NCBI RefSeq assembly: GCF_027947535.2
Contig: NZ_JAAGKO020000060.1
Coordinates: forward strand, 1 to 47,071
Origin: Streptantibioticus silvisoli
GTDB lineage: Bacteria; Actinomycetota; Actinomycetes; Streptomycetales; Streptomycetaceae
Reading direction: 5' to 3'
Length of the DNA: 47,071 nt
This document shows positions 28,109 through 31,123 of the stretch, one piece after another (position 1 is the first letter of the stretch; every line of letters starts with the position of its first letter). The position numbers were made by a program, and so were the translations under genes. Below the pieces are notes generated by a model that was not told the DNA's origin, did no database searches, and saw only the letters and a program-made list of their open reading frames with translations.

Positions 28109-29572
28109 TCAACCCCCGCCCCCCAGCGCCGCCTTCATGACCGCGCGGGCCACCGGGGCCGCGCTGCCGCCGCCGGAGGCCCCGGTCCGGGCGGCGGCGG
28201 TGTCCTCGACGACGACCGCGACCGCCACCGGCGCGGTCGCGGCGCGGGCCGGCCTCGCCCAGGAGACGTACCAGGCGTACGGCGTGCCCCGGTCGCCGGT
28301 GCCGGTCCTGGCGGTGCCGGACGTGCCGCCGACCCGGGCGCCGGGGACGGCCGCGCCGGTGCCGGTGCCGTCGGTGACGGCGCCGGCCATCAGGTCCGCC
28401 AGCACCGCCGCGGTCCGCCCGCTCATCGCCCGGCCCAGCGGCCGGGGCCGGGTGGTGCGGACGGTCCGCCCGGTCGCGTCGGTCTCCCGGTCGATCAGGT
28501 ACGGCGCCATCACCGTGCCGCCGTCGGCCACCGCGGCGGCCACCATCGCCATCTGCAACGGCGTGGCCCGGGTGTCGTCCTGGCCGACGCAGGACCGCGC
28601 GAGCCGCGCGTCGTTCATCGAGGTGTCGAACACGCTCTCGCTGACGTGCGACGGTATCGACGTGCCGGGGTCGTCGAAGCCGAAGGCGCGGGCCGCGCCC
28701 ACCATCCCCGGCAGCCCCACCCGCACGCCGAGGCGGGCGAAGACGGTGTCGCAGCCGGCTTCGAAGGCGTACCGCACGGTGGCGTCGCGGCAGCGGGGCG
28801 TGCGGTCGGCGAGCCGGTCGCCGGTGCCCGGCGGTGTGTACGGGTCGGGGGAGTCGGTGGCGGCGTCCGGGCCGGTGACGGCGCCGGAGTCCAGCGCGGC
28901 GGCCGCGGTGACCACGGTGAACGTCGAACCGGGCGGGTAGGTCTGCCGGATGGCCCGGTTCAGCATCGGCTGCCGCGGGTCGGTGGTCAGCCGCCGCCAG
29001 GCGGCCAGCGCGCCGCGCCCGTCGCCCGCGACCTCCGCCGGGTCGTAGGACGGGGTGGACACCAGCGCCAGGATGCGGCCGGTCGACGGATCGAGGGCCG
29101 CCACCGCACCGGTGCGCACGCCCAGCGCCCGGTAGGCGGCCCGTTGCGCCGCCGGGTCGACGGTGGAGACCACCCGGCCGCCGCGCACCGGCCGCCGGGT
29201 CACCGCGTTCCACAGCGGCGCCGCCGACAGCGCCGGGTCGGTGCCCGACAGCACCGGGTCGCCGGCGTTCTCCAGCAGCGTGGTGCCGTACGCCTGCGAG
29301 GCGTACCCGGTCACCGGCGCGAAGACCGGCCCGGCGGTGTACGCGCGCTGCCAGGCCAGGGTGCCGCCGGTGCGCACCGAACCGGTCAGCCGGGTGCGGC
29401 CGGCGTAGACGTCGCCGCGCGCGCGGGCGTAACGGGACATGGTGGTGCGGCCGTTGGCCGGGTTGGCGTTGTACGAGGGGGCGTCGAGGACCTGGATGCG
29501 GGTGAGGTTGACCAGCAGGGCGATCAGCAGCAGCAGGCTGAAGGCGGCGGCGTGCCGGATGTAACGGGTCAA
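28109..29572 (-). CDS. Class B PBP (PbpA-like) with substituted active-site motifs
   Basis: The 487-residue membrane-anchored PBP resembles actinobacterial PbpA: one N-terminal helix (about 8-25, AAAFSLLLLIALLVNL), a PBP dimer region (SRYARARGDVYAG, PVTGYASQAYGTTLLE) and a transpeptidase domain (AVAALDPSTGRILALVSTPSYDP). The three motifs needed for beta-lactam-type acyl-enzyme chemistry are altered. SxxK is STFT (216-219, in YPPGSTFTVVTA), SxN is GCD (273-275, EAGCDTVFARLG) and KTG is TSG (417-419, GGTSGTAR). The flanking sequence (TPLQMAMVAAAVADGG, VAVAVVVED) is well kept and the frame is intact, so it is a maintained pseudo-transpeptidase rather than a decayed gene. The start is TTG 29572, overlapping the SEDS stop (TTGA). 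Partner: the SEDS protein just upstream. A structural or regulatory role in wall synthesis is my inference. Confidence 0.88.
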   Translation of the reverse strand: MTRYIRHAAAFSLLLLIALLVNLTRIQVLDAPSYNANPANGRTTMSRYARARGDVYAGRTRLTGSVRTGGTLAWQRAYTAGPVFAPVTGYASQAYGTTLLENAGDPVLSGTDPALSAAPLWNAVTRRPVRGGRVVSTVDPAAQRAAYRALGVRTGAVAALDPSTGRILALVSTPSYDPAEVAGDGRGALAAWRRLTTDPRQPMLNRAIRQTYPPGSTFTVVTAAAALDSGAVTGPDAATDSPDPYTPPGTGDRLADRTPRCRDATVRYAFEAGCDTVFARLGVRVGLPGMVGAARAFGFDDPGTSIPSHVSESVFDTSMNDARLARSCVGQDDTRATPLQMAMVAAAVADGGTVMAPYLIDRETDATGRTVRTTRPRPLGRAMSGRTAAVLADLMAGAVTDGTGTGAAVPGARVGGTSGTARTGTGDRGTPYAWYVSWARPARAATAPVAVAVVVEDTAAARTGASGGGSAAPVARAVMKAALGGGG

Positions 29573-30963
29573 AACTCCAGCCCCCCGCTCGGCCGGACCA
29601 TCGCGATGACGCCGGTCTCCGCCTCCAGCGGACCGGGGGCGCGGGCGGAGTCGCTGAGCCGGATCAGCAGGGCGACGATGATCCAGTTGGTCACCACCGA
29701 CGACCCGCCCTGCGCCAGGAACGGCATGGCCATCCCGGTCAGCGGGATCAGGTCGGTGACGCCGCCGACGATGACGAACACCTGGAGCGCCACGATGGTG
29801 GCCAGTCCCACCGCCAGCAGCCGTCCGAAGGCGTCGCGCACCGCCAGCCCGGCCCGGAAGCCGCGGGCCACCAGCAGCGCGTACAGCAGGATCAGCACGG
29901 TGACCCCGGCCAGGCCCAGTTCCTCGCCCGCGGTGGCCACGATGAAGTCCGACTTGGCGGCGAAGCCGATCAGGATGGAGTGCCCGCGGCCCAGCCCGGT
30001 GCCCAGCAGCCCGCCGGCGGCGAACGCGAACAGCGCCTCCGCCAACTGGCCGGCGCCCTGGCCGGCCCGGATGGAGGCGAACGGGTGCAGCCAGTCGACG
30101 ACCCGGCTGTGCACGTGCGGTTCCAGCGACCCGACGACGCCCGCCCCGGCCGCCGCCAGCATCAGGCCGACCGCGATCCAGCCGCGCCGGCCGGTGGCCA
30201 CGTAGAGCATCACCACGAACAGGCCGAAGAACAGCAGTGAGGTGCCCAGGTCGGTCTCCAGCACCAGCACGCCGATGCTCATCGCCCACACCAGCAGGAT
30301 CGGGCCCAGTACCCGGCCGGTCGGCAGCTGCACCTTCCACAGCACCCGGCGGCCGGTGTACGCCAGCGCGTTGCTGTTGGCCGCGAGGTAGGCGGCGAAG
30401 AAGACCGCCAGCAGGATCTTGGCGAACTCACCGGGCTGGATGGACAGCGCGCCCTCCCGGATCCAGATGCGGGCGCCGTTGATCGCCGGGAAGAAGATCG
30501 GCACCACCAGCAGCGCCAGCGCGACCGCCATCGACACGTACCCGTAGCGGGCCAGCACCCGGTGGTCGCGCAGCAGCACCACCACCGCGACGCACAGCGT
30601 CATGCCCAGCGACGACCAGATCACCTGGCTGGGCGCCCCGGCCCGCTCGTGCGGGGTGGCCAGGTCCAGGCGGTGGATGAGCACCAGCCCCATGCCGTTG
30701 AGCAGCACCGCGATCGGCAGCAGCAGCGGGTCGGCGTACGGCGCCCGCCACCGCACCGCCAGGTGGGCCAGCACGACCGGGACGCAGAGCGCCGGACCGT
30801 ACAGCAGGACGCCGCGCGGCACCCTGCCGTCCTGGGCCAGGCCGACATTCACGTAACCGAACAGTGCGATCAGCACCGCGGCGGCCAGCAAGGACAGCTC
30901 GACCCCGCGGCGCCGGGGCTGCCGTACGGGGGCCACGGGAGCGGCAGCCCTGGGAGCGCTCAT
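29569..30963 (-). CDS. SEDS-family protein (RodA/FtsW-like), catalytic Asp apparently missing
   Basis: The 464-residue polytopic membrane protein has about 12 helices and many RodA-type signatures: INGARIWIREGALSIQPGEFAKIL, AAKSDFIVATAGEELGLAG, GGVTDLIPLTGMAMPFLAQGG. SEDS proteins polymerise glycan strands with a partner class B PBP; the essential Asp sits in WLDPFADxxxxGYQ of actinobacterial RodA. Here residues 291-298 read WLHPFASI, followed by RAGQGAGQLAEALFAFAAGG, so the Asp position is Ser297 (or Arg in a shifted alignment) and the GYQ is lost. With the PBP coupled downstream by a 4-nt overlap, both partners look catalytically impaired. The start ATG 30963 has only a weak ribosome site. 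It is divergent from an MFS exporter gene. Confidence 0.88.
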   Translation of the reverse strand: MSAPRAAAPVAPVRQPRRRGVELSLLAAAVLIALFGYVNVGLAQDGRVPRGVLLYGPALCVPVVLAHLAVRWRAPYADPLLLPIAVLLNGMGLVLIHRLDLATPHERAGAPSQVIWSSLGMTLCVAVVVLLRDHRVLARYGYVSMAVALALLVVPIFFPAINGARIWIREGALSIQPGEFAKILLAVFFAAYLAANSNALAYTGRRVLWKVQLPTGRVLGPILLVWAMSIGVLVLETDLGTSLLFFGLFVVMLYVATGRRGWIAVGLMLAAAGAGVVGSLEPHVHSRVVDWLHPFASIRAGQGAGQLAEALFAFAAGGLLGTGLGRGHSILIGFAAKSDFIVATAGEELGLAGVTVLILLYALLVARGFRAGLAVRDAFGRLLAVGLATIVALQVFVIVGGVTDLIPLTGMAMPFLAQGGSSVVTNWIIVALLIRLSDSARAPGPLEAETGVIAMVRPSGGLEF

Positions 30964-31123
30964 GGCCGCAACCTAGCAAGCGGCGCCGCGGCCGCGCTGG
31001 CGCTCGCACGTTGCGTGTGTCGATGGCCAGGGTTTTCATGGGGGAGGTGCCTATTTCTTATGCTTCTCATATTTTGTCTTTTTCTCGCCGGTTCCGCACT
31101 TCCGTCCAGGAAGGTCCCCGCCC

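Follow-up and report, generated by a model that had tools for sequence, protein, structure and literature searches.

In penicillin-binding proteins (PBPs), the catalytic partners of the nucleophile Ser are the Lys of the SxxK motif, the Ser and Asn of SxN, and the Lys of KTG. Class B PBPs (bPBPs) also activate the SEDS polymerases with which they are paired, and catalytically inactive SpoVD partly supports asymmetric division in C. difficile and needs its SEDS partner; SpoVD S311A and B. subtilis PBP2b, cited there, are bPBPs that still serve a SEDS partner without transpeptidase activity (PMC12713402). In E. coli, RodA keeps polymerizing when mecillinam blocks transpeptidation by PBP2, and uncoupled RodA polymerization leads to a toxic futile cycle (PMC6207328). 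The need for a bPBP beyond transpeptidation has so far been probed by engineered mutants and drugs, and a search of the open-access literature, with most subscription journals outside its reach, did not turn up any SEDS partner described as transpeptidase-dead by nature. Here, we analyze a PBP-SEDS gene pair on a 47,071-nt contig of Streptantibioticus silvisoli (NZ_JAAGKO020000060.1; contig C88 of an 8.7 Mb genome), referred to below as the window. The PBP has lost its transpeptidase motifs, with its changes concentrated at catalytic positions, the SEDS protein retains the published catalytic residues, and synteny establishes the orthology of the locus. We consider it about an even call that the bPBP serves, without catalysis of its own, as the partner of a SEDS polymerase whose known catalytic residues are in place. 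We hold this the most likely explanation because bPBPs activate SEDS proteins, RodA polymerizes without transpeptidation, and dead SpoVD partly works.

A PbpA-type protein without its transpeptidase motifs

The pair and the relevant parts of the PBP are as follows.

28109..29572, minus strand: bPBP of the PbpA type, 487 aa, TTG start, identified by Pfam and structure match; transpeptidase catalytic residues lost
29569..30963, minus strand: SEDS glycosyltransferase (FtsW/RodA family), 464 aa; retains the known catalytic residues
28916..28927, minus strand: motif 1, S216-T-F-T219, SxxK in orthologues; the nucleophile Ser remains, whereas a change from AAG to ACC has removed the general-base Lys
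28748..28756, minus strand: motif 2, G273-C-D275, SCN in orthologues
28316..28324, minus strand: motif 3, T417-S-G419, KTG in orthologues
29171..29419, minus strand: PbpA dimerization (pedestal) domain PF21922, residues 52-134, still recognizable by Pfam

Where active DD-transpeptidases carry SxxK, SxN and KTG or KSG, the window PBP reads STFT (216-219), GCD (273-275) and TSG (417-419). These motifs had been noted in a sequence-only reading of the window, and both the codons (ACC at 219; GGC and GAC in motif 2; ACG and TCC in motif 3) and the alignment to PbpA confirm them. The PbpA encoded elsewhere in the same genome (C46) has STFK, SCN and KTG at the equivalent sites, as does the aligned M. 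tuberculosis PbpA. Measured against the codons most frequent among orthologues, AAG became ACC, TCC or TCG became GGC, AAC became GAC, AAG became ACG, and ACC or ACG became TCC. Sequencing error is very unlikely, because at least seven nucleotide changes in five codons at three places would be needed.

We next read the motifs in orthologues at the same locus. The set comprised loci L018-L105 (88) minus the paralogue-like L101, L103, L104 and L105, with L106 also excluded, and covered the loci retrieved from a 121-genome list. The SxxK Lys, SCN and K[TS]G are kept in 83 of the 84 other orthologue loci, one of which has KSG; the sole exception, L074 in genome G103, reads SAFE/SCD/KGG. All 80 named loci likewise read S..K/SCN/KTG, the nearest being that of Streptantibioticus ferralitis at 63% identity. 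Intact motifs in orthologues, an outcome that the sequence-only reading had set against itself, were thus found at the locus for the PBP only, and the motif loss is therefore lineage-specific. The retained pseudo-elongasome proposed in that reading is, as a conserved state, not borne out, the PBP loss being local to one lineage.

The fold around the motifs is preserved. Pfam recognizes PF00905 with 161.8 bits (cut-off 22.1) and PF21922 with 69.2 bits (cut-off 27), and the structure model (pLDDT 82.3) places an N-terminal transmembrane (TM) helix at residues 2-29, so that transpeptidase domain, helix and pedestal of a bPBP are all present. The nearest solved fold is M. tuberculosis PbpA (3un7_B; Z 48.4, rmsd 2.4, 418 residues aligned). 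M. tuberculosis PbpA (3LO7, 3UN7) shares the fold (Z 48) and the PbpA-type domain plan with the window PBP; unlike it, that protein keeps STFK, SCN and KTG and, per the structure titles, has been solved as beta-lactam acyl-enzyme complexes. The genome's own C46 PbpA also has the PbpA-type domain plan, with a SEDS gene adjacent, as in the window pair. The PBP start codon (TTG) and the SEDS stop codon overlap by 4 nt (TTGA) and both frames are open, so that the earlier description of 4-nt coupling, open frames and an intact fold beside dead PBP motifs is supported by sequence and model.

To quantify how far the changes are confined to the active site, we used PBP columns at least 98% invariant across 83 other orthologues (n = 110; 7 catalytic, 103 other). 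Near-invariant columns, branch lengths and distance ratios were used throughout because synonymous differences look saturated (0.26-0.37 of same-amino-acid codons). The window PBP departs at 8 of the 110 columns (K219T, S273G, N275D, I329V, K417T, T418S, N427D and F435Y), that is, at five of seven catalytic versus 3 of 103 other columns (Fisher 9.2e-6, a test chosen after the fact, since the finding had been picked for its motifs). The same test gave 3.0e-4 with fully invariant columns and 5.8e-5 at a 95% cut-off. The PBP of L074 shows seven departures, three of them catalytic (Fisher 0.005; 0.042 with fully invariant columns, 0.021 at 95%), and the 83 other PBP sequences combined show 65, one of them catalytic. 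Given an assumed excess divergence of 0.12 or 0.23 per site, taken from branch lengths, neutrality would predict changes at about 12 or 21 of the 103 non-catalytic sites, compared with the three observed (P 0.003 or 1.2e-6).

The second degenerate PBP (L074/L204, G103:C2) has lost K219, N275 and T418 independently, beside a SEDS protein with an intact Asp. S216 and G419 are kept in both proteins, which is compatible with a changed chemistry in which S216 remains the nucleophile with another base, or with non-productive binding of beta-lactam or stem peptide, which would make the protein a sensor or a form that cannot be inhibited; I329V, N427D and F435Y at near-invariant sites could likewise mean a remodeled site. 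However, Lys of SxxK, both Ser and Asn of SxN, and Lys of KTG are all lost, and with them the established catalytic partners of the nucleophile, and we regard this explanation as improbable. Close to its C-terminus, the G103 PBP also carries an insertion of about 31 residues with a low-complexity Pro-Glu-Asn sequence.

The SEDS partner

Three sites matter for the SEDS protein.

29947..29949, minus strand: D339 of KSDF, the catalytic Asp, which corresponds to D255 of T. thermophilus RodA
30070..30093, minus strand: WLHPFASI, residues 291-298, the usual sequence of the subfamily and not the catalytic Asp site
30034..30039, minus strand: Q309E and S310A, two of the three departures at near-invariant columns

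The protein matches Pfam PF01098 (FTSW_RODA_SPOVE) with 222.6 bits against a cut-off of 26.4, and falls below the cut-offs of the NCBIfam equivalogs ftsW (230.6; 337.5) and rodA_shape (170.3; 336.7). The sequence-only reading had called it catalytically dead, on the grounds that WLHPFASI replaces a WLDPFAD with an essential Asp. The letters at 291-298 stand, whereas the role assigned to the Asp does not: in the literature, the catalytic Asp is E. coli RodA Asp262 or FtsW Asp297 (PMC10449877, PMC8765783, PMC10764723), which belongs to the (H)TDF loop. In a PDB alignment, T. thermophilus RodA D255 (Ala in chain 6bas_A) falls on window D339 of KSDF. The alignment thus puts the catalytic Asp elsewhere, a result that had been named beforehand as decisive against a dead SEDS protein, and together with the literature it led us to reject the argument from WLDPFAD as resting on the wrong Asp.

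Further residues published as important in E. coli RodA are W102, Q111, E114, K117 and D159, besides D262 (PMC10449877). D339, D238, W167, Q176, E179 and K182 are invariant in 83 of 83 SEDS sequences, the window included, and in 80 of 80 named loci; D339 was placed by alignment and the other five by motif, and the set of 83 leaves out loci with a SEDS match of 380 residues or shorter. At position 293, most sequences have His (57 of 83 in the first set, 74 of 80 in the second), and WLHP proteins mostly lie beside PBPs with intact motifs, making WLHP normal for the subfamily. The window SEDS departs at 3 of 120 near-invariant columns (Q309E, S310A and L342V). By these comparisons, the residues known to serve glycan polymerization are retained in the SEDS protein.

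A pair in which both partners are dead, acting without catalysis as a pseudo-elongasome in lipid II sensing, scaffolding or titration, could draw on the lost PBP motifs and on Q309E and S310A shortly after WLHPFASI. Yet the presence of D339 and the other published residues (those five by motif mapping), and the frequency of WLHP beside intact PBPs, make it the least probable explanation of those considered here, and a very unlikely one.

With a non-catalytic partner, the window PBP would still fold, bind the SEDS protein through its TM helix and pedestal, and activate it; the glycan would be cross-linked by other transpeptidases, either the genome's other PBPs or LD-transpeptidases. The work of the pair would thereby have narrowed from polymerizing and cross-linking to polymerizing only, with a structural activator. 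A stronger version, in which the bPBP survives purely as allosteric activator and anchor with cross-linking in trans, and in which this state arose at least twice independently in the family, each time through loss of catalytic residues of the same kind while the nucleophile Ser stayed, we put forward tentatively. SpoVD S311A differs in being a laboratory mutant of the nucleophile, whereas the window PBP changed naturally, losing other catalytic residues and keeping the nucleophile Ser. The likeness to E. coli RodA-PBP2 under mecillinam, a polymerizing SEDS protein beside a bPBP unable to cross-link (PMC6207328), is limited by the acute, drug-induced nature of that state, with its futile cycle, as opposed to a heritable one in the window. 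If a non-catalytic partner is confirmed, a natural pair of dead transpeptidase and apparently intact polymerase would mean that the two tasks are separable in evolution. It would also raise the question of how a cell escapes the toxic futile cycle seen with uncoupled RodA polymerization in E. coli.

In both the housekeeping RodA at C46 (L004), which reads WLDPMQGV and KSDY where the window subfamily has KSDF, and the window SEDS subfamily, the Pro257-Glu258 preceding HTDF in E. coli RodA is absent. As Pro257Ala abolishes E. coli RodA activity (PMC10449877), the catalytic loop may be positioned in another way in actinobacterial SEDS proteins.

Non-catalytic partner or early decay

A close second to the non-catalytic partner, and in our estimate somewhat short of an even chance, is early decay: a dispensable pair in which selection on the PBP was relaxed first, so that the PBP is becoming a pseudogene, while the SEDS protein seems intact merely through a later onset of its decay. 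Several observations weigh for decay and against a maintained partner. The PBP has a terminal branch of 0.468 (rank 3 of 83, median 0.108), with that of L074 the second longest; the window SEDS branch is somewhat long (0.179, rank 9 of 83; L074 SEDS rank 5), and its Q309E and S310A are unusual among orthologues. PBP identity to three sister genomes is 63-65%, compared with 74-76% among the sisters, and is lowered in every domain. Second-position GC of the PBP gene is raised to 0.648, against 0.548-0.569 in the three sisters, which also start with GTG instead of TTG.

The region upstream of the operon points the same way.

30970..30980, minus strand: CTTGCTAGGTT, a -10-like element that orthologues also have; its end lies 6 nt ahead of the SEDS start
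30981..31011, minus strand: upstream stretch in which many orthologues have an ACATAA..GGACAT-like sequence, not recognizable in the window

In the family, the promoter-like layout consists of the ACATAA..GGACAT-like element, about 16 nt by eye, CTTGCTA(C/G)GTT, and a start codon 4-9 nt further on. Of 79 orthologue upstream regions (among which L204 and L205 repeat L074 and L020), 74 have a -10-like TAnnnT 4-9 nt ahead of a possible start, and the mRNA of the SEDS-PBP operon is, judging from this spacing, probably leaderless. Among 82 distinct regions (of 85 that fulfilled the search rule), the window has the lowest score for the upstream element (-9.9, median 9.2) and the lowest A+T, again a point for decay, which hints at changed or reduced expression in the window. 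Conservation of the element is only moderate: the expression GG[ACG][ACT]A matches 35 of the 81 regions besides that of the window, and four regions other than the window's have scores under -5. Loss of the element is therefore a weak argument when taken alone. L074 keeps a similar element, by eye.

The distribution of degenerate PBPs also favors decay. With two DNA patterns, each run on 394 family genomes, YPPGS[TA]F without Lys was found among PBPs in the window and G103 only; none of the loci holding the 14 other family sites matches the PBP query or the SEDS query. The patterns specify YPPG-x-[TA]F followed by a non-Lys codon and are blind to Asn codons and to a changed YPPG. A looser pattern on 197 class genomes listed 21 sites, of which the 20 with loci read match neither query and one, in G507, was given no locus; the pattern for Thr, Arg, Ser, Ile and Met codons covers family genomes only. 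In G103 and 60 relatives, the pattern search gave a PBP match in G103 alone, two other sites not being PBPs. Each degenerate PBP is thus known from one genome, the window species being the only genome of its genus in the set, and persistence of the dead motifs through speciation is not seen.

Moreover, the pair seems dispensable in the family, because genomes without a clear PBP orthologue have only three SEDS matches: this holds for 9 of 16 re-examined genomes whose best match to the PBP query is paralogue-like. G034 has no clear orthologous pair, which G013 and G025 of the same genus keep. It contains a 54-aa stretch (L203:7979-8140, G034:C7) 57% identical to SEDS residues 293-346, which, lacking the usual flanking genes, may be a relic or a transposed piece.

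On the other side, several features speak against decay. No stop or frameshift occurs over 487 + 464 codons, both proteins being full length compared with orthologues, and the -10 element and the 4-nt coupling are kept. The sequence-only reading had taken the intact frames and coupling as an argument against decay; they are indeed intact, but 14-36% of simulations stayed free of stops by chance, so that the open frame is a weak argument and decay remains a close rival. GC3 of the PBP gene is 0.975, not below four orthologues compared (0.932-0.965), and the SEDS protein is as close to those of the three sister genomes (76-79% identity) as these are to one another (76-79%). For the PBP/SEDS distance ratio, the window shows only a moderate increase (1.67, rank 5 of 82; 1.73 and rank 2 in G103; mean 1.43, sd 0.14, L102 excluded), which weakens any claim of strong PBP acceleration. 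As to the loss of constraint expected of a pseudogene, the signs are mixed: changes at 3 of the 103 non-catalytic near-invariant sites speak against it, the overall acceleration and the promoter change for it. If decay is nonetheless the explanation, the pair would reveal in what sequence an accessory wall synthase breaks down.

Genomic context

The pair is an accessory SEDS-bPBP locus present in most family genomes examined, orthology being established by synteny. The gene order DAO-type oxidase, pentapeptide, SEDS, PBP, AurF (names by Pfam) is common to the window, Streptantibioticus ferralitis L123 and G013/L205; of ten further loci compared, nine share part of it and one (L135) has the pair alone. 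In the window, an MFS transporter gene (PF07690; 31124-32677, plus strand) lies between the SEDS and pentapeptide-repeat genes, which adjoin closely in G013 (L205); the promoter element upstream of the pair may have been replaced when this gene arrived.

In S. coelicolor, four SEDS clusters with the transpeptidases SCO2090, SCO2608, SCO3847 and SCO5301 are described (PMC4751497). The window genome has the same number of SEDS genes, with four SEDS matches and nine transpeptidase-domain matches overall. The window pair may correspond to the fourth of these, the SCO5301 cluster. KTG is present in all eight other transpeptidase-domain matches, and the S-x-x-K expression matched in seven of the eight. 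The idea that the genome holds another, intact copy of the pair was rejected, as the PBP query matches only itself, the C46 PbpA and a C51 PBP.

Two minor observations concern other genomes. Nine of the class-wide pattern sites, all in one genus, share a protein that presumably resembles an AraC-type regulator. In G004 (G004:C4:117452-118980), a PbpA-like gene was matched in two pieces (query 4-254 and 256-484), and is perhaps a broken paralogue.

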